A DNA stretch of 64,000 bases, from the IMG/VR virus record IMGVR_UViG_3300017971_000200, positions 62,001 to 126,000 of that record; one strand, written 5' to 3'. Source of the DNA: a virus. Under the pieces are notes generated by a model. That model did not search any database. It saw nothing but the letters and a program-made list of their open reading frames with translations, and had not been told where the DNA came from. This document shows positions 9,585 to 52,817 of this stretch, piece by piece (position 1 is the first letter of the stretch; the number at the start of each line of letters is the position of its first letter). Made by a program: the position numbers and the translations under genes.

Positions 9585-9811
9585 TTCTCTACCTCTTTTT
9601 TATATGTCGCCTGACACACTCGACAACGATATACAATAGTATAATCAAGATACTGCCCATCGTCGTCCTCTTTAATCTCCAAACACTTCTCCGTATATAA
9701 GTGTTCCTCTTTACAATTATGCTCGCCAACATATCGGGGACGCGGAACTACATCCACGTGCCCGATTGTTAACCCCAAATCCCTTAATTTCTTGTACTCT
9801 TTACTCAACAT
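9581..9811 (-). CDS. Zinc-binding-type small protein
   Basis: Start chosen at MLSKEYKKLRDLG because AAGG sits six bases upstream; a longer in-frame reading to 9832 exists. NCKEEH, a central Cys and CRVC near the C-terminus suggest a metal site. Start overlaps the 3' end of the HD-Pnk gene. Confidence 0.65.
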   Translation of the reverse strand: MLSKEYKKLRDLGLTIGHVDVVPRPRYVGEHNCKEEHLYTEKCLEIKEDDDGQYLDYTIVYRCRVCQATYKKEVEK

Positions 9812-10862
9812 AAATAACCTTATTGAACTCACTCTTTAAAGATTGTTCACCTTTCTTGAATAATTTATATTGTTTACGGATAATTGATTCCGGTACAACT
9901 GATCTATCAACTCCATTTTCTATATCCTTGTTTACTCGTTCTAATGAAGTTTCTACATCAGATTCAAATACAACGGCTATCTTTTGCGCACCATTGAAAT
10001 CAGCCATAAACTCAACTCTCAACCATTTATTTACATTGGTAGCATCCAAATACACTTTACCATATCTACGTAACGCGACTTTCATTCTTATTTTCGCGGT
10101 TGGCCAAACTTCAGCATTCATAGATTGATCGGAAACATCACCGGTCAACTCTCTACGAATATCGTCTGGCGAAACAATGTATTTTGGATCAACATTTTTT
10201 AAATAACGAGATTTACCTGAACCAGATATTCCAACCATTACATATACCTTTTTACTGGAATGTCTTTGTTTGAAATATACCCACTTTTCTTTGATAACGT
10301 TTTTCAACCTATCAGACCAATCGGATTCTTTCAAATATAATTGTTTGGATATAACCTTGTCAGCGGTAATAAAATCATCTAAATCGGGATCATCTTGTAA
10401 CTTCTTGTGACCCGGATTCAAATCCATATGTTTATCAATCATACGATAAGTTAAATCATAATGTTTGATTCTATTTTTTATAGATTCTAAATACTTTATA
10501 GATTCTTTTGGATGTCCAAAAGCATATATACGATCATTACCTACATTAGTCTTAGTTCCCTTACCATAATCATGTAAAAAAGCTGCTTCTAACAAATCAG
10601 GACGTTTTAATTTCCATACAGCCATTACTACATAATAAGTGTGATAAAAAGCATCAAACTCAGGGTGATGGTTCAAACCTTGTGGAACGCCCTCTAAAGC
10701 GTTTACAACCTTAGCGGTAATATCATATTCACGTAACGCTCTTTTCCATTCCTCTATATAAGTAGCATTAGTAACAATTCTACGTTGTGGATATTCACGA
10801 ACAATCGCCCGTGAACATAACCAAGTTTCAACCAATATGTTTTTTAAACTTTGTTGTGCCAT
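9801..10862 (-). CDS. HD-Pnk: HD phosphoesterase fused to polynucleotide kinase
   Basis: 353 residues. The N-terminal half is an HD domain (HHPEFDAFYHTYYV, FLHDYGKGTK, IDKHMDLNPGHK). From about residue 205 a P-loop kinase follows (VYVMVGISGSGKS, SPDDIRRELTG, DATNVNK). This is the architecture of Runella HD-Pnk, which removes 2',3'-phosphates and phosphorylates 5'-OH ends of broken RNA. It prepares ends for the RNA ligase encoded one gene upstream, so tRNA repair after anticodon-nuclease attack is the likely role. Confidence 0.88.
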   Translation of the reverse strand: MAQQSLKNILVETWLCSRAIVREYPQRRIVTNATYIEEWKRALREYDITAKVVNALEGVPQGLNHHPEFDAFYHTYYVVMAVWKLKRPDLLEAAFLHDYGKGTKTNVGNDRIYAFGHPKESIKYLESIKNRIKHYDLTYRMIDKHMDLNPGHKKLQDDPDLDDFITADKVISKQLYLKESDWSDRLKNVIKEKWVYFKQRHSSKKVYVMVGISGSGKSRYLKNVDPKYIVSPDDIRRELTGDVSDQSMNAEVWPTAKIRMKVALRRYGKVYLDATNVNKWLRVEFMADFNGAQKIAVVFESDVETSLERVNKDIENGVDRSVVPESIIRKQYKLFKKGEQSLKSEFNKVIYVE

Positions 10863-10884: not shown

Positions 10885-10913
10885 AAGTTACAAAACTTTT
10901 TACTAAATGTCAA
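10885..10913 (-). promoter_or_regulatory. Promoter for HD-Pnk
   Basis: TTGACA, 17 bases, TAACTT on the minus strand, 22 bases upstream of the HD-Pnk start. It overlaps the last codons of the HD-GYP gene. The -10 is weaker than in the other copies. Confidence 0.65.
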
Positions 10914-11511
10914 GTGTTTTTTTCAATATTTTTTCCTTTTCTAATACCTTATGTAACGCTTGTAAAATAAACAACTCATACTCTTTTCCTGCTCTCGCAT
11001 ACATATGAGTAATAACATTCTTTGGATCAAAACCCTTTCGATATGGGCGATCCTGCGTCATAGCATCATAAACATCAACTATCGCTAATATCTGGGCGAG
11101 CCCGTTGAACTCCGTTCCCTTTAAACCATTTGGATAACCTGTACCATTCAACTTCTCATGATGTTGCTCAACTATCTCAGCTTCAGCATCCATACCAAGT
11201 GACCGTAAAATCGTAGCACTGTCTGATGGATGTTGTTTGATACTCTCATATTCTTCGCCAGTTAATTTACCGGGTTTAAATAAAATACCCTTTGGTATCT
11301 TGATTTTTCCCACATCATGATAATACGCTGCACGTGTTACCAGGTTCGCGGTTTTCAAGTCTAAACCCAACTCTTGGGCGACCATCTTAACAATCCTACC
11401 AACCCTTAAAGAATGTTTTTGGGTATAATCAGAGTCCTCTACGGCTTTCAGAAGACTCATTGTGATTAATACCCTTTGATAGTCTATTTCAAATTTAGTG
11501 TCCTTTGCCAT
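10903..11511 (-). CDS. HD-GYP domain phosphodiesterase
   Basis: 202 residues covering a full HD-GYP catalytic core: HSLRVGRIVKMVAQELG, AAYYHDVGKIKIPKGIL, IKQHP, EQHHEKLNGTGYPNGLKG, IVDVYDAMTQDRPYRKG. Family members hydrolyse c-di-GMP or cGAMP-type dinucleotides. It has no sensor domain. It could lower host c-di-GMP or destroy cyclic-dinucleotide alarm signals of CBASS-type defence (inference). Sits between the two RNA-repair genes and overlaps the ligase stop. Confidence 0.9.
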   Translation of the reverse strand: MAKDTKFEIDYQRVLITMSLLKAVEDSDYTQKHSLRVGRIVKMVAQELGLDLKTANLVTRAAYYHDVGKIKIPKGILFKPGKLTGEEYESIKQHPSDSATILRSLGMDAEAEIVEQHHEKLNGTGYPNGLKGTEFNGLAQILAIVDVYDAMTQDRPYRKGFDPKNVITHMYARAGKEYELFILQALHKVLEKEKILKKTLDI

Positions 11512-12691
11512 TTATTTTCTCTACCAATAAATTTTTTATTCGTTTTAATCCCTTTTGTTCGTACAATCCATGTATTACATCTATCGCCTTTAATTCAGGT
11601 TTATCTACCATAGTGAAAATAAATCCAACTCGATCACGTTTGATTTTATCTTGTATCTCTAACGCTAACTCTTTACGAGACATTTCAGGCGCTCTTTTTC
11701 TATAATACTCACCCTCTTTAGATAAATATTCAATCAATTCAAAATACCTTTTTTTCAACAACTTATATTCTTCTTTTACGGAATCAGGTAACTTGTCCAA
11801 ATATACTTCAAATTCTTCTTCCTCGTTGTCCAATAAAACACCTACCAAGTTGTTAGTCACACCCTCGCCAGTAGCTACATGGTGTAAATGAACATACTTT
11901 GGCGACTTAACTTTTACTCGACCAACTACTAAATCATCTTTGAACTGAACAACTATAAATCCCTCAAATCCATTTCCCTTTTCATTCTCTTTATCAGCAA
12001 TTTCAGATAATTCGGAAACATCCTTAACATCTTTCAAATCAAACAATCTTGGAAAACGTATAGAATATCCCTTGAACATCTTTTCGTATTTCTTCTTTAT
12101 GGATTTATGGAATATATTAAAGTCACGTAATTCACCATCGTTTTCTTTTAAACCAATGAAAACTAACTCTTTTACGCCTTCATAATCAACTACTATTTGA
12201 TTTGATGGATGTACCAACTCAAACATATAAGTCAAATTTGGCGAAAATTCCGCAGTTAACTTTTCAAAATCTTCTTTAGAAACTACATCAAAGAAAATCT
12301 TGGAAAAAGAAATTCCATCCATATTAGACGCATCATCAGCATCAATAGTTCCATTAGTTGCTACTCTCCATTCACCATCATAAAAATATACTTTTATAAT
12401 AGAACCATCTACCTTTTCAACTACATAAGAATCATCTAATATCAAATTGTAAGCATATATTTCACCGTAGTTGAAAAACTTATCAAATGGATGCGCAACT
12501 ATATTCCAAGTTCCCTTTTCTAATATGATACCACGAGATTCTTTTACAATCTTGTTAGAGAAATCGGAATTAAACTGATTATACTTGAATATAACTAAGT
12601 TATCCTTAGCATTAATATGCAAGTTGAACGGGTCTTTACGTAAATCATCTAAAGACCGTATTTTCAATATTTTTTGTAAGTTCAATTTCAC
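11495..12691 (-). CDS. RNA ligase, T4 Rnl1 type
   Basis: 398 residues, GTG start with GGAG upstream. The nucleotidyl-transfer motif KVDGS (about residue 94), SRGIILE, TYMFELVHPSN, FEGFIVV and RVKVKSPKYV correspond to ligase motifs I, Ia/III, IV and V. The C-terminal helical domain resembles the tRNA-specific part of Rnl1. It seals 3'-OH/5'-P RNA ends made by the neighbouring HD-Pnk. A promoter lies just upstream. Confidence 0.88.
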   Translation of the reverse strand: MKLNLQKILKIRSLDDLRKDPFNLHINAKDNLVIFKYNQFNSDFSNKIVKESRGIILEKGTWNIVAHPFDKFFNYGEIYAYNLILDDSYVVEKVDGSIIKVYFYDGEWRVATNGTIDADDASNMDGISFSKIFFDVVSKEDFEKLTAEFSPNLTYMFELVHPSNQIVVDYEGVKELVFIGLKENDGELRDFNIFHKSIKKKYEKMFKGYSIRFPRLFDLKDVKDVSELSEIADKENEKGNGFEGFIVVQFKDDLVVGRVKVKSPKYVHLHHVATGEGVTNNLVGVLLDNEEEEFEVYLDKLPDSVKEEYKLLKKRYFELIEYLSKEGEYYRKRAPEMSRKELALEIQDKIKRDRVGFIFTMVDKPELKAIDVIHGLYEQKGLKRIKNLLVEKINGKGH

Positions 12692-14461: not shown

Positions 14462-14827
14462 CTACTCAACTTGTGAAATTTTCTCCAATACGTTTTCTAC
14501 GTCATTTATCCCAAATCTTTTGTGTAAGAAAAAAACATAAGGATCATTGGACAATTCTGCAAGTGGAAATCCACTCATAAAAATTACCCTCAAATCATTT
14601 GATAATTCTCTTATCTTTTCATATACAACCATTCCATTTACATCTGGCATCATCATATCGACAAATACCAAATCCAATTCATCTATATTCTTTTCGACCT
14701 TTTCTATTCCCTCAACGCCACCTAAGGCGACAATAACCTCAATTCCTAACTCAAGTGATTCTAATATTTCTTGTAAATACTCGACCAATTCTTGTTCGTC
14801 GTCAATTATTAACACCAATTTCGCCAT
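14462..14827 (-). CDS. Stand-alone response-regulator receiver (CheY-like)
   Basis: Start at MAKLVLIIDDEQ, supported by GAGAAAGGGA upstream. All receiver landmarks are present: acidic pair DDE, phospho-acceptor Asp in LVFVDMMMPDVNG, Ser in IFMSGFP and Lys in HKRFG. No output domain. It could take phosphate from the phage hybrid kinase at 26665 or a host kinase. Confidence 0.88.
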   Translation of the reverse strand: MAKLVLIIDDEQELVEYLQEILESLELGIEVIVALGGVEGIEKVEKNIDELDLVFVDMMMPDVNGMVVYEKIRELSNDLRVIFMSGFPLAELSNDPYVFFLHKRFGINDVENVLEKISQVE

Positions 14828-14888
14828 TCCCTTTCTCCACATAGTTCATTGTGATTCTCAACTATAAACCTATTCGTATATATACCTA

Positions 14889-16401: not shown

Positions 16402-16866
16402 TTAAAAAAACTTATTTTTTCTTTCTTCCTCTACTTTTATTTCCTCTCGCAACTCCATTAAAAGTTTTCCTAACATATTATAGCCCGCTCCATCTTCATT
16501 TCTACCCCAAAAATAATCTGTTTTACTGTACTCAACTATTTCTGCATTTCCGGTAGACAATAAAAGATTTCTCATACGATCTATCTTTTTGAATTTCGCC
16601 ACAAGGGCTCGCCTCATAACTAATAACTTTACTTCATTCCAATCACTTCTCAAAGGTAAATCGTCTCTACGACCCTCATGTGCAGCACCACCTGGCTTAT
16701 CTTGATTTCGTATGTATTCTTCCCATTCAGTGCCTTCATATTTCTTAGATTGATAATAGTGTTCTGTACTTTTATAATCTCGACCATCAATAGTAATCGT
16801 TATAGGATAAAAATTACTAAACTCTCCAAAAGGCTCTTTAAGTTTCCTGAATATTATTTGTTTCAT
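16402..16866 (-). CDS. NADAR (YbiA/DUF1768) family protein
   Basis: 154 residues with the family signatures GEFSNFYPITITIDGRDY, STEHYYQSKKY, AHEGRRDDLPLRSDW, and WGRNEDGAGYNMLGKLLMELR. Members cleave N-glycosidic bonds of ADP-ribosyl or riboflavin intermediates, and some remove ADP-ribose from guanine in DNA to counter DarT-type toxins. Together with the NAD pathway at 32-36 kb it suggests protection of NAD+ and DNA during infection (inference). Confidence 0.88.
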   Translation of the reverse strand: MKQIIFRKLKEPFGEFSNFYPITITIDGRDYKSTEHYYQSKKYEGTEWEEYIRNQDKPGGAAHEGRRDDLPLRSDWNEVKLLVMRRALVAKFKKIDRMRNLLLSTGNAEIVEYSKTDYFWGRNEDGAGYNMLGKLLMELREEIKVEEERKNKFF

Positions 16867-17981: not shown

Positions 17982-18650
17982 TTAAGATAATAATTCTAAT
18001 AATCCATTTATTATTGTTTCTTTATTTTTACGATAATCTTTTTCCCAAATAACAATAACGTTAAATCCCATTGATTCTAATAGTTGTTTTTTTTCTTTAT
18101 CATATTTCCATATTTCTTTTGCTTTAATTTTCTTTTTGTTTTTTGTTATCAAATGATTTTTATCATATACATTTGGATTAGCATGCCAGTAATCTCCATT
18201 ATATTCTACAATTATATTTTTGTTAGGTACAAATATATCTACAAAATACTTTTCAATATGTTTTTGTTTTTCAACTTGTATTTTATTTTTTGTTAATATA
18301 TTTATTATTTCTATTTCAGCTTTTGATGATCTTCCTTTTTGCCAACGAACATCTGAATTGTTCCATATCATTGATTTTTTCATTTTATCATAAAAATTTT
18401 TATCTTTCCATTTTTCTTTAAGAGTTTTACTTATAGAGTTTTTGTGTTCTTGACTTAACTTTTTTCCTATCTTTGCATTTGTTATATTTTTTTTGTGAGA
18501 TTCGGTTTTTGATTTTCCGGATAACGCATTAGATAGATTCTTTTTATGTTCTTCTGAAAAGGGTTTTTTGTTTTTTTGACTACGTTGCATTTTTTCTCTA
18601 TATTCCGGATCGGCCCATAACCTTTTCATTTTTTCAGATCTTGATTCCAT
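17982..18650 (-). CDS. Free-standing homing endonuclease (NUMOD3 plus Vsr-like nuclease)
   Basis: 222 residues. The N-terminal half has repeated NUMOD3-type DNA-binding units (FSEEHKKNLSNALSGK, LSQEHKNSISKTLKE). The C-terminal half is a Vsr-like PD-(D/E)XK fold (YFVDIFVPNKNIIVEYNGDYWH, then LLESMGFNVIVIWEKDY), the EDxHD homing-enzyme arrangement. Lower G+C and Lys/Asn richness than neighbours fit a mobile gene. It lies 62 bases from the RNase P RNA, a possible homing target. Confidence 0.85.
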   Translation of the reverse strand: MESRSEKMKRLWADPEYREKMQRSQKNKKPFSEEHKKNLSNALSGKSKTESHKKNITNAKIGKKLSQEHKNSISKTLKEKWKDKNFYDKMKKSMIWNNSDVRWQKGRSSKAEIEIINILTKNKIQVEKQKHIEKYFVDIFVPNKNIIVEYNGDYWHANPNVYDKNHLITKNKKKIKAKEIWKYDKEKKQLLESMGFNVIVIWEKDYRKNKETIINGLLELLS

Positions 18651-25576: not shown

Positions 25577-26047
25577 CTATAAACCAAATCTATCTAATTT
25601 AGCTGGTTCAATATCATAAACACTTGAGAATTGAGTTTTGAGATTTCCAAACCAATCAATACCGTGTTTTTGAATAATGGTATAAAAATCTTGAACATCA
25701 TGATCACGAAGTTTGTAATCCCATTCACCGGTCTTTTCATTCATAACTGGATGAACGTGTAACAATTCATGATACATCAAAATTTCTCGTGTTTCATCGT
25801 CAAGTTGATCCCACAAATCACCGGACATTTGAATAACATAATCACAATTACCAAATACTTTCAATAAGTTATTCGCCCTTGAACAATGACCAGCCGTAAA
25901 CTTATTGATAAATGGATATACCAACAAATACTTTATCCTAACATTTTCGATGCCCATATTTTTGTCGTGCATAACCTTGTCCGCTAATACTTCTAAGTCT
26001 TGACTTTTCACATACTCGCGATTCTTAATTTTTACAGTCTCACTCAT
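25577..26047 (-). CDS. Putative phage metallopeptidase
   Basis: 156 residues. IQMSGDLWDQLDDETREIL then HELLHVHP gives the HExxH zinc motif in the context of the phage metallopeptidase domain (PhageMetallopep), with downstream His/Asp as possible third ligand. Substrate unknown. Confidence 0.8.
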   Translation of the reverse strand: MSETVKIKNREYVKSQDLEVLADKVMHDKNMGIENVRIKYLLVYPFINKFTAGHCSRANNLLKVFGNCDYVIQMSGDLWDQLDDETREILMYHELLHVHPVMNEKTGEWDYKLRDHDVQDFYTIIQKHGIDWFGNLKTQFSSVYDIEPAKLDRFGL

Positions 26048-26664: not shown

Positions 26665-28926
26665 TTAAGTTCCATCTAATATTTCTCTTATCTTTCTCGC
26701 CAATGATGTCGGCGTCACAGGTTTCTGAATAAAATTAGTTCCAGGATCTAATACCCCACGATGAACTATTGTGTTATCGGTGTAACCGGACATATACAAA
26801 ACTTTTAGATTTGGTATAAAATCACTTAACTGGATCGCAAGTTCTCTACCGTCCATTCTCGGCATCACGACATCAGTCACCAACATATTTATTTTTGTTT
26901 GATTATTTTTCATCACTTCTATAGCTTCAATACCATTGGACGCACAAATAACTTTATATCCCATATCTCTTAACGCGTCACAAAGTAATAGACGAACTTC
27001 TTTTTCATCTTCTACTAATAACAATGATTCATTTCCACTATAATCTAATATCTCTCCATTTATTTGTATTTCGTTTTTTGTCTCTCTATCCACTCTTGGC
27101 AAATATACCTTGAACGCCGTTCCTTGTCCAATCTCACTATATACCCAAACAAAACCACCACTTTGTTTTATTATTCCATACGCCGTAGACAATCCTAAAC
27201 CAACTCCCTTACCCATTTCTTTTGTCGTAAAAAATGGTTCAAAGATTCTTTCTTTTGTCGCCATATCCATTCCAACACCATCATCCGTAACAGAAAACAT
27301 TATGTAACGACCTTTATCAATCATCTTTTGTTTTCGTTCAACGTGATCTTCATCAAAATATATATTTTTTGTCTCAAGTCTAATCAATCCTACATCTTGT
27401 TCAGGTATAGCATCCCGAGCATTGATTATCATATTCATCATAACCAAACTAATTTGATTGACATCAACAAAACAATTACCCAAATCAGGATCAAGATGTT
27501 TAGCGATTTCTATATCTTCTCTTATCAGTGTCGCCAAAACTTTTATTTCATTTTCAAGAATGTTATTTAAGTTAACAACTTCTGGCGTCAAAATTTGTTT
27601 TCTACTAAAAGCAAGAAGTTGTTTTGTAAGTGCCTCGGCTCTATCAGCCGCATTATCTATTTTTTCTAATTTTGTTTGTAAATATATATGTGGTTCTGTT
27701 TCAGGACATTTTTGACTTCTCCTAATAAGAAGTTCAGTGTGACCACGAATAACGGTAAGAATGTTATTGAAATCGTGAGCAACTCCACCCGCTAATAAAC
27801 CAATAGCTTCCAATTTAGCAGCTTGTCGTAATTGTTCTTCAAGATTTAATTTTTCTGATATATCATAAAAAATTACAAGTATAGATTGTTTATTTTTATA
27901 TATTATTGGTTTAGCAACAACTTCAACATCTATGATACTACCATCTTTTTTAAAGAATTTTTCGTCTAACGGTTCATTAGTTTCTCCTGTTTCTATCATA
28001 TTTTTTATTCTTCCTTTAACAACACTTCTATAATCAGGATGAACATAATCCATTACTTTGTCGCCAACCAAATCTTTATAATTGTCAGCTCCAATTAATT
28101 GACATGCAGCAGGATTGGCGAAAACAATCTCCATACTTTTTATATTGTAAACTATGATTGAAGATGGTAAAAGTTCCACTAAATCTTTATATTGTCTTTC
28201 AAGAGATTCAAGTTTTAGTTTTTCACTTATATCATTGAACAAAACCATACTTGCTTTTTGATTCTTATAAGTTATTAATTTAGAAATCACTTCCATTTCA
28301 ATAGCTTCTTTTTTATCATGTGATAAAAATTTCATTCTACTCGCTGGACAATATCCTTTTTCTTGTAATTCCTTTATTCGCCGTTTTCCTTCCTCAATAG
28401 AATCAGGATGGACGGATTCAAAAACACTTTCAGGTTTATCATCGTCCAATGGACGATTTATCATTTTTCTCGCTTGTTTGTTGGAAAATAATTTTTGTTT
28501 TGTTTTTAAACTATAAACTGCCATTCCGATTGGCAAAAGTTCAACTAAATCTTCATAGTATTGTTCTTTTTCTATTTGTTTAGTAATATCTATACCAAAA
28601 CTTAAAAATGTATTATTTGGAGTTATTTCTGCAGAAAATAAACCATGACGTGTTTCACCATTTTTATGTAATATGGTAAACTCTCTATTTAATACTTTAC
28701 CTTTTTCACGTAATTCATTACTAATCGCGATCCGTTCTTCCGGATACTTCCACATATTAAATTCAAGAGAAGTTTTACCAATTATTTCTTCTCGTGCATA
28801 ACCGGTCATTTCACAAAATAAATCATTTACTTTTATAAACTTTCCAGTGTCCAATTCGCTATATGCTACCGCAATAGGTAACGAACCATATACTTTATCA
28901 AATGAAATTGTTATATCGTCGTTCAA
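26665..28926 (-). CDS. Hybrid sensor histidine kinase (three PAS, HisKA, HATPase, REC)
   Basis: 753 residues, TTG start with GGAGAG upstream. Three PAS domains (about 10-120, 125-240, 245-365), the last two with the same LVELLPxxIxVY opening. The H-box is IGLLAGGVAHDFNNILTVIR. An ATP domain follows (MNMIINARDAIPEQ N-box, VTDDGVGM, GVGLGLSTAYGIIKQSGG). A C-terminal receiver has VEDEKE, TDVVMPRMDG, YMSGY and QKPVT. No transmembrane helix, so a soluble sensor. Rare in phages. It may relay to the receiver at 14462 or to host regulators. Confidence 0.93.
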   Translation of the reverse strand: MNDDITISFDKVYGSLPIAVAYSELDTGKFIKVNDLFCEMTGYAREEIIGKTSLEFNMWKYPEERIAISNELREKGKVLNREFTILHKNGETRHGLFSAEITPNNTFLSFGIDITKQIEKEQYYEDLVELLPIGMAVYSLKTKQKLFSNKQARKMINRPLDDDKPESVFESVHPDSIEEGKRRIKELQEKGYCPASRMKFLSHDKKEAIEMEVISKLITYKNQKASMVLFNDISEKLKLESLERQYKDLVELLPSSIIVYNIKSMEIVFANPAACQLIGADNYKDLVGDKVMDYVHPDYRSVVKGRIKNMIETGETNEPLDEKFFKKDGSIIDVEVVAKPIIYKNKQSILVIFYDISEKLNLEEQLRQAAKLEAIGLLAGGVAHDFNNILTVIRGHTELLIRRSQKCPETEPHIYLQTKLEKIDNAADRAEALTKQLLAFSRKQILTPEVVNLNNILENEIKVLATLIREDIEIAKHLDPDLGNCFVDVNQISLVMMNMIINARDAIPEQDVGLIRLETKNIYFDEDHVERKQKMIDKGRYIMFSVTDDGVGMDMATKERIFEPFFTTKEMGKGVGLGLSTAYGIIKQSGGFVWVYSEIGQGTAFKVYLPRVDRETKNEIQINGEILDYSGNESLLLVEDEKEVRLLLCDALRDMGYKVICASNGIEAIEVMKNNQTKINMLVTDVVMPRMDGRELAIQLSDFIPNLKVLYMSGYTDNTIVHRGVLDPGTNFIQKPVTPTSLARKIREILDGT

Positions 28927-28946
28927 CTATTCTCTCCGTAAATAAG

Positions 28947-29026
28947 AATCCCCGGTGAGAATCGAACTCACATTCTCAGCTCCGGTTACGGCTACAAGCT
29001 TAGGAGGCTTGCCCGGCTACGGGGAC
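28947..29026 (-). tRNA. Unusual tRNA, anticodon CCT (Arg)
   Basis: Acceptor GTCCCCG/CGGGGAT and T-arm GTGAG-TTCGATT-CTCAC are normal. The anticodon arm CAAGC-CTCCTAA-GCTTG gives CCT. Only six bases (GCCGGG) replace the D-arm, and the variable region is 23 bases long with a CCG-TAAC-CGG hairpin, so D and variable regions may pair with each other. Confidence 0.6.
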
Positions 29027-29029
29027 ATT

Positions 29030-29236
29030 CTATTTTTTATCTTTCTCCACTTTCATTCTTTTTACAAAACCATCAGGGTCTTTTTTGTATTCCACAATCA
29101 TATCAGTAAATGCTTTACTGATACCTTCCTCAATCGTCATACCCAAACTTTGAATTTTTTCTACAATATCATCTTCTAATTCTACGACAGTAAAAACTTC
29201 TCCAGTTTTTTCGTCGATAAGTTCTACTTCAACCAT
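29030..29236 (-). CDS. Acidic small protein, 68 aa
   Basis: Strand-rich first half and charged helical second half; not recognised. GGAGAGAAATGAC upstream. Last gene before the odd tRNA-Arg. Confidence 0.65.
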   Translation of the reverse strand: MVEVELIDEKTGEVFTVVELEDDIVEKIQSLGMTIEEGISKAFTDMIVEYKKDPDGFVKRMKVEKDKK

Positions 29237-29252
29237 GTCATTTCTCTCCTAC

Positions 29253-29262
29253 TATATAAATA
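29253..29262 (-). promoter_or_regulatory. ATATTTATA promoter-like box
   Basis: CATATTTATA on the minus strand 21 bases before the ATG at 29236. Confidence 0.3.
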
Positions 29263-29279
29263 TGTATAGATATAAAAAA

Positions 29280-29957
29280 TCAAACAACACTGCAATTTTC
29301 TTTTATATATCTTTCTCTGGCTAAAACCATTCCTCTAAATTGATCCAATGTATCAACCATCATAAAAGGTATATCATTATTATCTCTACGATACCAACCA
29401 TTACCACGTTCCCGTTTAAACAGGACACCTACACTACCATTTTCACTGGCATGTATAGTTTCTACTGTTTGTGGTTTATCGTCCAACAAATAATTCGGAT
29501 GATACAACTCTTTTTGACTTGAGAAAATCAAATCTTCATACGTTATTTTATTTTCTTCTAACCATTCAATAGTACCCACTTTTGATTCCGGTGTATATTG
29601 ATGTGTTGATAAAACTATACGACAATTCGGCAGTTTTTCTTTCAAGATGTTGAAATGTTTATACCATTGTCCTGGCGTCACAAGCGCCGGAGCATGGCGA
29701 AACACATCATAAGTCAAATCACCACCAAAAAATAACTCAGTCATAAGTTTATCGACTTCCTCACCTTTTTCTTCCGGCCAGTATTCATCTTTGAACCACC
29801 AACCACGTATTTCACTCGGATGAACTTTATATTGTTCATATTGTGGATAACGTTCAAAGAATAATTTCTCTGAATAGCCATGAAAATCGCGCAATACGCC
29901 ATCTATATCGTGATGAATCGTAATAATTCTATTTGTAATAACTTCTATTTTTCCCAT
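29280..29957 (-). CDS. HAD-family 5'(3')-nucleotidase-like protein
   Basis: 225 residues. HHDIDGVLRDF (motif I), IVLSTHQ (motif II) and LLDDKPQTVE (motif IV) define a HAD phosphatase of the 5'-nucleotidase C type, often used by phages in nucleotide metabolism. Motif III lysine not certain. Confidence 0.78.
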   Translation of the reverse strand: MGKIEVITNRIITIHHDIDGVLRDFHGYSEKLFFERYPQYEQYKVHPSEIRGWWFKDEYWPEEKGEEVDKLMTELFFGGDLTYDVFRHAPALVTPGQWYKHFNILKEKLPNCRIVLSTHQYTPESKVGTIEWLEENKITYEDLIFSSQKELYHPNYLLDDKPQTVETIHASENGSVGVLFKRERGNGWYRRDNNDIPFMMVDTLDQFRGMVLARERYIKENCSVV

Positions 29958-29966
29958 AAGCCCCCT

Positions 29967-30203
29967 TTATACATACGTTTTATACATATCAAACAACTTC
30001 TCTAATGTTTCCTTTTCTATTTCCTTATCTTGATGTATCTTTCCTATTGTCGCCAGAATCGTCTGGGCTCGCCCAGAACGAGACTGGTTTAATGTCTTTT
30101 CATTTGGATCATAACCATTAGTCTCAAATGTCTTTACTAAATACTTCTTTAGTAATACATTTAACTTCTTTATCGTCTCGTCCTTTTTTGAATCAGGTAT
30201 CAT
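29967..30203 (-). CDS. Small helical protein with LYK-type C-terminal module
   Basis: ATG at 30203 chosen (an upstream TTG is possible). C-terminal IEKETLEKLFDMYKTYV resembles the end of several other proteins here (30206, 42394, 43664, 63645), suggesting a shared small module. Confidence 0.6.
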   Translation of the reverse strand: MIPDSKKDETIKKLNVLLKKYLVKTFETNGYDPNEKTLNQSRSGRAQTILATIGKIHQDKEIEKETLEKLFDMYKTYV

Positions 30204-31629: not shown

Positions 31630-32174
31630 CTGTTTTCTGATTTATTTTTTACTAATTCGTTAGCGAACTTTCTAACTGACTCCCAATACAATAAATAGTC
31701 TGTTCTTCGTCTTTCTCTTATAGGATTTCGCCATCTTTCGTCAGGTCTATTATCTTGTCTCAACCAATGATAAATATCAGCCCACTCGGTTTCTGCATCA
31801 AATCCGGCTTTATCGTCCAAGTAAACATCAAAATATGGTTTATTTGTATAGTCACCATAATCGCCTTCACCTATCTCAGGATTATCATTTACATATTCAA
31901 ACTCTATATTATGTAACGACAACAAATTAATATAGTGTCTTATTTGATCTTTATGTGAACAAGTATAAAGAATCGTCCTTATATCTGGGCGAGCCGTAAG
32001 TAATTGTAATGACGGTTTCGCCCATTCGTAAAAATCTAACTTGTTTACTAACTTTTCCTTGTGATTCGGACGTATGATCACACCATGCATGTCGATTAAC
32101 CAATAGGTTTCATACCATTGTTGTCTCATTTGTTTATCATATTGACGATGTATAACGTCTATAATTGCTCCCAT
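31626..32174 (-). CDS. HAD-like protein at the end of the NAD operon
   Basis: 182 residues. YWLIDMHGVIIRP looks like HAD motif I (Asp-x-His), followed by TILYTCSHKDQ and VYLDDKAGFD (motif IV). Start overlaps the pncA stop by one base, so it could be a nucleotidase acting on a pathway intermediate. Ends SENS inside the promoter. Confidence 0.65.
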   Translation of the reverse strand: MGAIIDVIHRQYDKQMRQQWYETYWLIDMHGVIIRPNHKEKLVNKLDFYEWAKPSLQLLTARPDIRTILYTCSHKDQIRHYINLLSLHNIEFEYVNDNPEIGEGDYGDYTNKPYFDVYLDDKAGFDAETEWADIYHWLRQDNRPDERWRNPIRERRRTDYLLYWESVRKFANELVKNKSENS

Positions 32175-32794
32175 TAATATCTTTCCTCAATAACATTTGA
32201 AACAATCAACTCAACATCATTTTCCTGCATTTCTATCAAAGCATCATCCGCTCCATCAAGACCCGCAACACCATCAACAACAACATAAGTTATAAATCCC
32301 AAACTTTCAGCATCAAGAGCTGTAAACTTTACACAATAGTCTGTCGCCAAACCAACAATATAAACTTCGTCAATCGCTTGATCATCTAAAATGTCACATA
32401 AATCTGTTTCAAACAATTTACCATTGTCAAAAAATCCACTGTAAGAATCTACTTCGGGATTCGTTCCTTTTACAACATATTCATTAATCCATTCTAAATG
32501 TAAATCCTTATGTAATTCAGCACCGTTTGTTCCTTGAACACAGTGATCCGGCCACAAAACTTGTTCTACACCATTTAAATTAATAACATCAAACAACATA
32601 CTGCCTTCATGACTTGACGCAAATGACTTATGACCCTCAGGATGCCAATCTTTCGTGGCGACAATTAAATCCCAATCAACGTTTGCGGTAAGTTTATTTA
32701 CAACAGGAATGATTTTTCCGGCGTTCGGTACTTCCAATGATCCGCCTTCCATAAAATCATTTTGAATGTCTACTAAAATCAAAGCTTTTCTCAT
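32174..32794 (-). CDS. pncA: Nicotinamidase
   Basis: 206 residues, isochorismatase-fold. ILVDIQNDFMEGGSL holds the catalytic Asp, DWHPEGHKSF the metal His, VKGTN the Lys, and LATDYCVKFTALDA the nucleophile Cys. Converts nicotinamide to nicotinic acid, first step of Preiss-Handler salvage. Three bases after nadE. Confidence 0.92.
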   Translation of the reverse strand: MRKALILVDIQNDFMEGGSLEVPNAGKIIPVVNKLTANVDWDLIVATKDWHPEGHKSFASSHEGSMLFDVINLNGVEQVLWPDHCVQGTNGAELHKDLHLEWINEYVVKGTNPEVDSYSGFFDNGKLFETDLCDILDDQAIDEVYIVGLATDYCVKFTALDAESLGFITYVVVDGVAGLDGADDALIEMQENDVELIVSNVIEERY

Positions 32795-32797
32795 ATC

Positions 32798-33544
32798 TTA
32801 CCTCCTGTATATCGGTGGATATTTAGTTTTATGTTCATTTATCCTAATCATTTTCTTTACTTTTTCAATCTTATCGGCATGATCAATAGGATATTCTTTA
32901 CCGGTTTCAAGATAATATAGAATAGAATCTAATACATCATAACTCATTCCAATATCTTTTTCATCAGTCTGCCCTTCCCAAAGAGCAGCAGTAGGCGTTC
33001 TCTCAACCAAATCGTCGGGAATACCTAAGTTTCTCGCCATCCCTTTTACTTCCCACTTGTAATATTCTGCTATCGGAAGCACATCAACTCCACCATCACC
33101 GTATTTAGTAAAATATCCAATCATATCTTCACTCTTATTTCCGGTTCCGGCGACCAACATATTATTTTTTCCAGCGACAGCATAAAGGAAAGTCATTCTC
33201 AATCTTGCTCTTATATTCGCTTGTTCTAACCTACCCAACAAAATCGGAGCTTCCTCGACCATCGCGTTATATGTTTCTCTCATATCATAAAAGACAGTTT
33301 CAATACCAAGAAGTTTAGCAACTCTATCAGCGTCAAGTTCATCTTGTTCACCAGAATAAATCGGCATAATAACACCAATAACATTTTCTTTACCAACGGC
33401 TTTTACCGCGAGAGCGGCGACAAGAGTAGAATCAATACCACCACTCAAACCAACGACATAACCATTAGTTCCAGAAATAGTATTATAATTCTCTAACCAA
33501 CTTGCAATGTCTTTTATTTCCGGTTCAAAATTAAGATTACTCAT
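32798..33544 (-). CDS. nadE: NH3-dependent NAD+ synthetase
   Basis: 248 residues. VVGLSGGIDSTLVAALA is the PP-loop, AGTGNKSEDMIGYFTKYGDG binds the deamido-NAD, and PTAALWEGQTDE follows. No glutaminase domain, so ammonia is the donor. Final step, nicotinate adenine dinucleotide to NAD+. First gene of its unit behind the promoter at 33573. Confidence 0.93.
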   Translation of the reverse strand: MSNLNFEPEIKDIASWLENYNTISGTNGYVVGLSGGIDSTLVAALAVKAVGKENVIGVIMPIYSGEQDELDADRVAKLLGIETVFYDMRETYNAMVEEAPILLGRLEQANIRARLRMTFLYAVAGKNNMLVAGTGNKSEDMIGYFTKYGDGGVDVLPIAEYYKWEVKGMARNLGIPDDLVERTPTAALWEGQTDEKDIGMSYDVLDSILYYLETGKEYPIDHADKIEKVKKMIRINEHKTKYPPIYRR

Positions 33545-33572
33545 TTATATACCTTTCTTTATGTACTTTCTT

Positions 33573-33601
33573 AATATACAAAATTAAGTTCACTTTGTCA
33601 A
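33573..33601 (-). promoter_or_regulatory. Promoter for nadE-pncA-HAD
   Basis: TTGACA-17-TATATT on the minus strand. Overlaps the last codons (ENS-stop) of pncB. Confidence 0.87.
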
Positions 33602-34776
33602 CTGTTTTCTATAATTCTTTTCGCTAAATCTATCATTTCAGGATCACCGGTGTGTTTTCCCTCAACATCACTCAACTTGATTGTCGGTATCCATTTTTTA
33701 CCTTGTGGTTTAGCAGAAACCATCTTGATAACAATATTCAATGGAGTAACATCAGGAATATCATTAGAAAGATTAGTTCCCATTCCATATGAAATTTTAA
33801 TTCTACCATGTCCAAAATGACTATTTATTCTTTCAATTTCCTTTGGATTCAACCCATCGGAGAATACAATCGTTTTAGTTCTTGGATCAATACCAAGTTT
33901 CTTGTAATGTTCAATAGCTCTTTTTCCAAACTCAATAGGATCACCAGAATCGTGTCTAACACCATCAAATAATTTAGCATACATTGTGTCAAACGATCCA
34001 AAAAAATTCTTTGTGGTGAAAGTGTCCGTGAGTGCTATACCCAACTCTCCATTATAAACATCGACCCAACGACCAAGAGCAACAGCGTTTGCTTGATGAA
34101 AACCATATTTCGCAGCGTGAAACATAAACCATTCATGAGCTTGTGTTCCAATAGGTTTTATTCCATACTTACGAGCTAAGTGGACATTACTTGTACCAAC
34201 AAAATGATTTGATTTACTAAATGTTCTAACCATTCTACTTTGACTCTTGTAAGAATGTCGCCGTCTTGTTCCAAAATCGGCTAAACTTATAGTAGGTACT
34301 AAATCAAATAAGAAATCTCTTTTTGATTCATTATGATTTTCTATATCTCCCCAATGTACATTACCAATACCTTTACCGGTATGAATGAAATAAAGTTCTG
34401 AAATCAAAGCCATAAGCGGAACTTCCCATAAGATTGTTCTATACCATAATCCCTCAATCTCTACTGAAAGTTCACCATCATTCCAAAAAATCTTTATTTC
34501 ATCAGCGTTATAGCGATAACCTTTCAGGAAATCTATATAAACAGGATCAAAGAAATAAAGGTTTTCTCTCAAATAATCTTCCTCACCATCGGTAAGAAAA
34601 AGTTTTTCCATATCCCAAACCATGTCGCCCAAATCCTTAGCAACTGCTTCAGGAATGTAAGTTTTCCCACGATTGAAAAACTTATACTTTACTTCGGCAC
34701 GCGGGTACAACTTCGTAACTGCGTTCTGCATTGTAAACTTATATAAATCATTGTCTAAAATAGATTTGATTAACAT
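33598..34776 (-). CDS. pncB: Nicotinate phosphoribosyltransferase
   Basis: 392 residues, close to the length and motif order of bacterial PncB: LDNDLYKFTMQNAV, LWEVPLMALISEL, LADFGTRRRHS, GTSNVHLARK, GTQAHEWFM, GIALTDTFTT, RHDSGDPIEFG, VFSDGLN and ISYGMGTNL. It makes nicotinate mononucleotide from nicotinate and PRPP. It is not the NadV/NAMPT type usually found in phages. Confidence 0.93.
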   Translation of the reverse strand: MLIKSILDNDLYKFTMQNAVTKLYPRAEVKYKFFNRGKTYIPEAVAKDLGDMVWDMEKLFLTDGEEDYLRENLYFFDPVYIDFLKGYRYNADEIKIFWNDGELSVEIEGLWYRTILWEVPLMALISELYFIHTGKGIGNVHWGDIENHNESKRDFLFDLVPTISLADFGTRRRHSYKSQSRMVRTFSKSNHFVGTSNVHLARKYGIKPIGTQAHEWFMFHAAKYGFHQANAVALGRWVDVYNGELGIALTDTFTTKNFFGSFDTMYAKLFDGVRHDSGDPIEFGKRAIEHYKKLGIDPRTKTIVFSDGLNPKEIERINSHFGHGRIKISYGMGTNLSNDIPDVTPLNIVIKMVSAKPQGKKWIPTIKLSDVEGKHTGDPEMIDLAKRIIENS

Positions 34777-50864: not shown

Positions 50865-52109
50865 TTATTTAACAAGATTCATTCTTTTAATTGAACGATT
50901 ACTACTTGTACTCAATACATAAAAATAAGTTCCACTCGCTAACTCACTACCATCAAAATCTACGGAATAACTACCAACATTCAATCGACCATTAACTAAT
51001 ACTTCAACAACCCTACCCTGAATGTCATATACAACTAACTTAACATTGTCGGTATTAGGAATACTAAATTCAATCGTAGTGTTCGGATTAAATGGATTCG
51101 GATAGTTTTGAAAAACATTAAACTCAATAGGAATGTCGCCTAACGTCTCAATAGAATTTGGTTCTTCTACCTTTGGTTCGGTTAACGGACTCTCGTAGGC
51201 ACCTAAATCAGGTAACCCAGGACCACATCTCGGATTTCCCTCTATATCTAATTCGGGAGCATAATACATCGTTGAATCAACTAATATGGAATCAACTCCA
51301 GCTCCAATAGCGGATGAATAATCACTTAAATGATAATCGTTGTTTTCAAGTGAAACAAACACTGTGTCGCCCAATGTCTCACCGAATGGGGCATAAATCG
51401 AATTTGATATTGTCGCTTCTCCATCATGTGCGTTTAAAGTAACACTTTTTGTAATAATAGAATTGATAACTGTTATCTTTAATCTACTCTTGTCGGTTTC
51501 TTGATAGCCTTCAATCGGACCGGTAACAGTTGAATTCATAATAATAGAATGAAAAACTTCCTTTGGTTCTTTACGTTCACTCTCACTATAAAGATAAATA
51601 CCAGTATAAAAATCAAGTCCATAAACTATACTATTCGTCATTTCAGTAGAAGTAGATATGAAAGCAACTCCGGCGAAATGATTTGAATTCACAATAAGAT
51701 TGCGTAATTTACAAGAAATGTTTTCATTAAAATTATTAGACATACATAAAACTTGAGCGCCATAGTCTTCAAATCCCCAACTAATTGCTCTACCCCCTTT
51801 AATAGTAAATCCAATTACTTCACTACTATCAGCTTGTACCCATAATGCTTCGCCAGAACCTAAATCACCATCAATAATTGTATTCAAAATATGAAAATAT
51901 CTGGCGTCCAATATAAATTCTGAAGCTAAAACAATACTCTTGTTAAGTATAACATTTGAGTATGTTCCATCACGAACGATTATTGTATCACCATCTGCTA
52001 CGGAATCAATAGCCGTTTGAATCGTCGGATAATTATCCGGTACATATACCGTTTCACCAAACGATAACGACACTAAAACTAAACTTAACAAAATAACTAA
52101 ATACTTCAT
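50865..52109 (-). CDS. Secreted beta-helix protein with T9SS-type sorting domain
   Basis: 414 residues from MKYLVILLSL, supported by GAAAGGG upstream. Signal peptide, then PDNYPTIQTAIDSVADGDTI typical of right-handed parallel beta-helix (pectate-lyase-like) proteins. The last 90 residues form a type A sorting domain (NVFQNYPNPFNPNTTIEF, LVVYDIQGRVVEVLV, ASGTYFYVL). In Bacteroidota such tails direct export through type 9 secretion. It may degrade or coat host surface glycans. Confidence 0.85.
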   Translation of the reverse strand: MKYLVILLSLVLVSLSFGETVYVPDNYPTIQTAIDSVADGDTIIVRDGTYSNVILNKSIVLASEFILDARYFHILNTIIDGDLGSGEALWVQADSSEVIGFTIKGGRAISWGFEDYGAQVLCMSNNFNENISCKLRNLIVNSNHFAGVAFISTSTEMTNSIVYGLDFYTGIYLYSESERKEPKEVFHSIIMNSTVTGPIEGYQETDKSRLKITVINSIITKSVTLNAHDGEATISNSIYAPFGETLGDTVFVSLENNDYHLSDYSSAIGAGVDSILVDSTMYYAPELDIEGNPRCGPGLPDLGAYESPLTEPKVEEPNSIETLGDIPIEFNVFQNYPNPFNPNTTIEFSIPNTDNVKLVVYDIQGRVVEVLVNGRLNVGSYSVDFDGSELASGTYFYVLSTSSNRSIKRMNLVK

Positions 52110-52128
52110 AATATAACCCTTTCTTTGT

Positions 52129-52392
52129 TTATTTACTTTCATCTAATATATTATCTATATACCAAATATCTGCTTCGGTAATCGGATCAAATTCTTCCTT
52201 GAAATATTTACGACCAAATGAATCTTCTATATATCCACTTTCGCCCACATTCCACTGATCACGAAACATCAATCCATCATATTCTTCCTGAGTAATGTAT
52301 ATCCGCATCCAGAATCGCGGTGGTACATCATACATCGCTTTTACATACCTGTACTTCTGTCCTCGGTATTCCATCTTAAACTCCATATCCAT
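52129..52392 (-). CDS. Unknown protein, 87 aa
   Basis: Aromatic, acidic, alpha/beta; starts MDMEFKMEYRGQ. Overlaps 52376 by 17 bases. Confidence 0.64.
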   Translation of the reverse strand: MDMEFKMEYRGQKYRYVKAMYDVPPRFWMRIYITQEEYDGLMFRDQWNVGESGYIEDSFGRKYFKEEFDPITEADIWYIDNILDESK

Positions 52393-52543
52393 TTATCAAC
52401 TGAAATTGTTTCAACTTCTCAATCTCAATCTTAGTTCTAATAATATCCAACTCCAATTTAATTATTTGAGCTTGACGCTGATCGATGATCTTACTTTTGA
52501 GTAATCTCATAACATCTTTGTATACATCACTATTTCTTGACAT
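52376..52543 (-). CDS. Coiled-coil protein, 55 aa
   Basis: MSRNSDVYKDVMRLLKSKII onward, heptad-like helix. AAAGGAAATAAAA upstream and promoter at 52563. Confidence 0.6.
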   Translation of the reverse strand: MSRNSDVYKDVMRLLKSKIIDQRQAQIIKLELDIIRTKIEIEKLKQFQLINGYGV

Positions 52544-52817
52544 TTTTATTTCCTTTTACACTAATATAAGACTTTTTAGAATACTTGTCAACTGTTTTTT
52601 TCAGATACCATTGATAAATGGCGAAAATCTTATCAAAAAATGTAACATCACTTACTAAGTAACAACTGTGTTCTTGACCAGTATACTTCACTTTATTATC
52701 ATGAAATATCTTTTCTTTTCCATACTTAGTACAATAAATGTATTTACCATGTTCATTCTTGAATATACATTTTTCGCCAACTAAAATGTTATTAAAATAC
52801 TTTTTTTCTAACTTCAT
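52530..52817 (-). CDS. Unknown basic protein, 95 aa
   Basis: Beta-rich first half, Lys-rich second half whose codons run through the promoter at 52563-52591. One-base overlap with 52817. Confidence 0.6.
   Translation of the reverse strand: MKLEKKYFNNILVGEKCIFKNEHGKYIYCTKYGKEKIFHDNKVKYTGQEHSCYLVSDVTFFDKIFAIYQWYLKKTVDKYSKKSYISVKGNKNVKK
52563..52591 (-). promoter_or_regulatory. Promoter inside the 3' end of 52530 gene
   Basis: TTGACA-17-TATATT on the minus strand, read as TVDKYSKKS by the overlapping gene. Confidence 0.8.

Follow-up and report, generated by a model that had tools for sequence, protein, structure and literature searches.

The window analysed here is a stretch of 64,000 nucleotides, bases 62001-126000 of a 161,620-bp virus record in IMG/VR (IMGVR_UViG_3300017971_000200), and its minus strand carries at 26665-28926 a single open reading frame for a hybrid histidine kinase of 753 aa, arranged as PAS-PAS-PAS-HisKA-HATPase_c-REC and assigned from the reading frame, Pfam, an AlphaFold model and an ortholog in a related phage. 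A ribosome binding site, GGAGAG (28937-28932), lies 5 nt 5' of the TTG start. The Pfam matches (PAS 3.6e-24, HATPase_c 5.1e-17, Response_reg 1.1e-16 and HisKA 1.3e-9) all pass the curated cut-offs, with values that chance would not produce. Pfam clearly recognizes the first PAS domain (28582-28851, minus strand; PAS_9, 37.2 bits) and the third (27859-28194, minus strand, residues 245-356; PAS_9, 47.9 bits), whereas the middle one (28228-28566, minus strand) gives a weak sequence match (PAS_12, 4e-4). In the AlphaFold model, which is of moderate overall confidence (pLDDT 75), each of the three nevertheless has a PAS-like fold, and the DHp region, formed by two long helices, the ATPase and the receiver can be seen as well. 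The three PAS domains listed in the earlier note are thus recovered as folds, with only the middle one falling short at the level of sequence.

The catalytic part of the protein is complete. The HisKA dimerization and phosphoacceptor domain (27595-27798, minus strand, residues 377-444) carries the invariant H384 in the motif HDFNN, which also fits the HDxxN phosphatase pattern, and is followed by the HATPase_c domain (27094-27465, minus strand, residues 488-611), where N498/N502, D548-G550-G552, FEPFFTTK and GxGLGLS provide the N, G1, F and G2 boxes. The C-terminal receiver found by Pfam (26689-27021, minus strand) has its acceptor D685, together with D640 of the acidic pocket, S713 and K735. 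The intact hybrid kinase announced in the earlier note is therefore there, its reading frame spanning exactly that interval and every catalytic residue being present, and such a protein is very probably catalytically active. No transmembrane stretch was found in the kinase (the best 19-residue Kyte-Doolittle mean is 1.28), which makes it a cytosolic protein. Just upstream, at 28947-29026 on the minus strand, lies a tRNA-like element with a CCU anticodon (Rfam tRNA, 34 bits; not called by ARAGORN), in which the acceptor and T arms are normal but the D arm is cut short. A CCGG within its 20-nt insert is able to base-pair with the D region, and the element folds with that odd pairing.

The record contains phage genes (baseplate wedge, a Dda-like helicase and a T4 RNA ligase, T4 Rnl1) and 30 tRNAs, and nearly all of its genes lie on one strand; a Terminase_6N search of the record gave no match, which fits a fragment. 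Its relative IMGVR_UViG_3300032053_000002 (G001; 292,723 bp, terminase present) has many genes in common with it in preserved order, and there a kinase ortholog of 500 aa and 45% identity sits between the same two neighbours as here, a PhageMetallopep protein downstream (25577-26047, minus strand, Pfam; 59% in G001) and an NT5C-like nucleotidase upstream (29280-29957, minus strand, Pfam; 39% in G001). The ortholog has one PAS domain in place of three and retains the catalytic core and receiver, as would be expected of a working kinase with altered input. Host contamination of the assembly, which the earlier note had offered as grounds for rejecting its reading, is ruled out because the synteny of the kinase is kept in this divergent phage. 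The kinase family is overwhelmingly cellular, as bacterial contamination or the recent accidental pick-up of a host gene would have it, but the locus and flanking genes are the same in a divergent phage, the base composition is phage-like (kinase GC 0.316; mean over the genes 0.345, sd 0.030) and the catalytic residues have been retained across deep divergence, so that almost no weight is left for such an origin. On the evidence of its locus, the kinase is a phage gene and not host contamination. Elsewhere in the record, outside the window and among phage genes, a TonB-dependent receptor with plug and beta-barrel and a phage-like GC is encoded at record bases 28198-30171 (L004:8198-10171, minus strand); a phage-encoded receptor of this type is unusual and points to a Gram-negative host.

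The 161.6-kb record has only two receiver domains, the C-terminus of the kinase and a single-domain protein of 126 aa at 14462-14842 on the minus strand. The latter, already named as a receiver in the earlier note, is real: it matches Response_reg at 8.8e-16, its residues D14/D15, D62, S90 and K108 are intact, and its predicted fold is CheY-like (pLDDT 91), with receivers as the best PDB matches (TM about 0.8). It has no output domain, and in the model a short loop, PLAELSND, with the same sequence in G001, takes the place of its alpha-4 helix. Its gene belongs to a region of RNA-repair and NAD genes (RNA ligase, PNK, NADAR), between a gene for a NADAR-domain protein (16402-16866, minus strand, 3.1e-33; syntenic in G001, 54%) and a T4-type RNA ligase (11495-12691, minus strand; syntenic in G001, 63%), and its ortholog in G001 (53%, E 1e-44) is flanked by the same two genes. 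Fifteen phage records with a homologous RNA ligase gave no receiver above the cut-off, and receivers are therefore not a common background in such phages. At 32174-34776 (minus strand) the window also holds an NAD+ cluster of an isochorismatase-like protein, NadE and nicotinamide phosphoribosyltransferase, which together with the NADAR gene may possibly rebuild NAD+ against NAD-depleting defences. A Vsr/DUF559-like endonuclease is encoded at 17982-18650 (minus strand).

Jumbo phages carry cREC, a receiver-like domain, in just such RNA-repair and NAD neighbourhoods (PMC7824862, PMC9503650), and the identity was put to a direct test because of this setting. If the lone receiver were a cREC-type enzyme, it would act on cyclic phosphates in RNA repair or ADP-ribose processing and would take no part in a phosphorelay. 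The RNA ligase, PNK and NADAR genes around it are those described for cREC, but the Pfam cREC_REC model (PF20274) has no match in this record (G000) or in G001, whereas the same search is positive in records W03 and G018. The lone receiver moreover matches Response_reg strongly, has the conventional D/D, D, S and K residues and coexists with a histidine kinase, while cREC is reported never to occur together with one, the only mention of histidine kinases that a text search found in the jumbo-phage survey (PMC7824862). We thus reject a cREC identity as very improbable. The true cREC_REC genes of G018 and W03 occur in records that also encode conventional receivers.

Adjacent to the RNA ligase, at 10903-11511 on the minus strand, is a stand-alone HD-GYP phosphodiesterase of 202 aa (HDVGK, HHEKLNGTGYP and DVYDAM; HD_5, 3.9e-30) with an ortholog in G001 (55%, motif HHERLDGSGYP). 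The metal ligands H33, H65, D66, H94, H117/H118 and D146 are all present, as is the HHExxxGxGYP motif in both phages, and the enzyme is expected to break down cyclic dinucleotides, with c-di-GMP and cGAMP as candidate substrates. The best PDB match is the HD-GYP protein 4mcw (1.3e-33), an enzyme acting on c-di-GMP, and the second is 5z7c, a 3'3'-cGAMP phosphodiesterase. A search for GGDEF domains gave no match, either here or in four further records, so that the phage could, on this evidence, lower but not make c-di-GMP. The gene adjoins, besides the ligase, a polynucleotide kinase (9801-10862, minus strand) whose N-terminal HD-type domain resembles that of the CCA-adding enzyme, and polynucleotide kinase and RNA ligase form an RNA healing and sealing set. 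Given this RNA-repair and NAD setting, the HD-GYP enzyme could serve counter-defence alone, destroying the cyclic nucleotides of CBASS or type III CRISPR with no link to the kinase, and the receiver could have another protein as its target. Such a role has been predicted for the HD-GYP enzymes of jumbo phages (PMC7824862), and the 3'3'-cGAMP phosphodiesterase among the two top structures agrees with it. The closest structure is nevertheless the c-di-GMP enzyme 4mcw, and about 19 other phage loci have no HD-GYP gene in the vicinity of their RNA ligase (the records being without receivers where checked), so that HD-GYP is no standard part of that cassette. Two further contigs, G003 and G009, encode a receiver directly N-terminal to HD-GYP in one reading frame, and both records also have hybrid kinases; G009 owes its viral standing to a terminase match and G003 is a putative viral contig. 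An independent counter-defence enzyme is in our judgement a serious contender, if somewhat below an even chance.

The fourth signalling gene is a PAS-only protein of 400 aa with three PAS domains at record bases 51579-52781 (L005:11579-12781, minus strand), outside the window, with an ortholog of 45% identity in G001; it may provide the kinase with a cue or serve some other purpose. Kinase, receiver, HD-GYP enzyme and PAS-only protein occupy matching positions in both phages, a set backed by these two related genomes only, whose other common proteins are about 30-67% identical. The HD-GYP and PAS-only genes are conserved with the pair and were absent from the earlier note, which had proposed a phosphorelay between the kinase and the lone receiver and had suggested looking for the pair in related phages. 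This search was positive, the order, strand and neighbours of the two genes all being the same in G001, and the simplest account of their matching positions is that both were present in the common ancestor and then retained. The observation behind the earlier note is confirmed, and its interpretation is supported in part: a complete hybrid kinase resides in a true phage and the pair recurs, but the rarity claimed for phage sensor kinases was overstated. The two genes are 11.8 kb apart and non-adjacent, which counts against pairing. Defence-system models matched neither the kinase nor the receiver. IMG/VR scans with the metallopeptidase, receiver and HD-GYP sequences found G001 as the only close relative, plus one weak HD-GYP match; single-protein scans for kinase, receiver and DNA ligase returned nothing, their patterns probably being too specific, and alignment queries worked. 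We lean slightly towards regarding the four genes as a cytosolic two-component module that belongs to the phage and passes down by vertical inheritance, with a proposed split circuit.

Bacterial versions of such kinases are ordinary. The nearest cellular relatives are common hybrid kinases of Myxococcota, Gemmatimonadota and Cloacimonadota with 48-52% identity over the core, and bacterial PAS-HisKA-HATPase-REC kinases of the HDFNN type, including CckA, resemble the phage kinase in domain order and motifs as well; in the PDB its core is closest to CckA-type 5idj. It differs from them in its fixed phage neighbourhood and its lack of a membrane segment, and the two phage kinases differ from each other in the number of N-terminal PAS domains (3 and 1). 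They pair in a tree of 101 sequences with an SH-aLRT of 94, just under the tool's mark of 95, and many branches of this tree are poorly supported, so that it singles out no bacterial donor.

Among phages, sensor kinases are uncommon, though not "very rare", the words of the earlier note. Relatives of the kinase occur at 94 IMG/VR loci, some of them probably host-derived, and a terminase is also present in several of the larger kinase-bearing contigs examined, among them G011, G015, G018, G020 and G009. Two of these, G011 and G015, represent a separate terminase-positive lineage with a hybrid kinase, a lone receiver (that of G011 scoring just below the Pfam cut-off) and a PAS-only protein, here with four PAS domains and no kinase. 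The 735-kb phage LR756501 encodes a PAS-HisKA-HATPase-REC kinase of 737 aa and, elsewhere, a separate lone receiver; it is comparable in this architecture and pairing, whereas the kinases are only about 24% identical, there is no sign of a common neighbourhood, and a search for HD-GYP in that phage found none. The kinase also matches the PHROG family phrog_5982 over PAS-HisKA-HATPase-REC (7e-106), a family of similar proteins annotated without function. Many tblastn matches to the kinase among public phage sequences are apparently bacterial DNA under a phage label and were left out as precedent. In the literature searched, phrases for phage-encoded or viral histidine kinases returned no papers, and no comparable module retained by vertical descent in phages came to light. 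Phage-borne phoR genes have been described in soil phages (PMC10987575), and the kinase may, as phage phoR might, be directed at the host, phosphorylating or dephosphorylating host Hpt proteins or response regulators in place of the lone receiver and so altering host transcription. The record's lack of an Hpt and of any response regulator with a DNA-binding output would suit this role, as would the closeness to common bacterial kinases; a lone receiver conserved alongside the kinase with its acceptor site intact, and the second lineage (G011/G015) that again combines the two, speak for a partner of the phage's own. A host-directed kinase is possible but less likely than not. Both this role and a counter-defence HD-GYP enzyme are compatible with the kinase/receiver pair.

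That kinase and lone receiver belong to one pathway seems to us marginally the better supposition. In the circuit that we propose, the PAS domains would respond during infection to a cytosolic ligand that they bind or to a redox or energy cue, and the dimeric kinase would phosphorylate H384 from ATP. From H384 the phosphate could move on to D685 within the kinase and to D62 in the lone receiver, with or without a host Hpt protein as intermediate, and the HDxxN phosphatase motif would allow the flow to run backwards. Lacking an output domain, the phosphorylated receiver would act by protein contact, for which the likeliest phage-encoded target is the HD-GYP enzyme; once switched, this enzyme would break down c-di-GMP (or 3'3'-cGAMP) in the infected cell. 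Such a circuit would be a split version of RpfC/RpfG, a hybrid kinase with a REC-HD-GYP regulator. Hybrid kinase, receiver and HD-GYP likewise occur here in one genome, but the receiver and the HD-GYP enzyme are encoded apart, at 14462 and 10903, the record has only two receivers, the kinase has cytosolic PAS sensors, and the link is putative. Hybrid kinases often work through Hpt, and the RpfC kinase carries an Hpt domain, whereas searches of the present record and of four others gave no Hpt match, and the ORFs of this phage contain no HPt-like motif. The receiver-HD-GYP fusions of G003 and G009 would be the physical link that a split model predicts. That the HD-GYP enzyme is the output of the kinase/receiver pathway is a tentative assignment, less probable than the pairing itself. 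The complete scheme, in which a PAS hybrid kinase, a helix-4-less receiver and a stand-alone HD-GYP enzyme form a split phosphorelay that, upon an infection cue, controls the host's cyclic-dinucleotide pool, be it the c-di-GMP lifestyle signal or a CBASS-type alarm, is more doubtful still.

Phages are usually pictured as running a fixed programme or as listening via simple repressors. The virus studied here probably monitors signalling in the infected cell and rewires it. If this is true, a decision circuit of bacterial style would be part of the equipment of some large phages, with kinase, receiver and phosphodiesterase kept through deep divergence.
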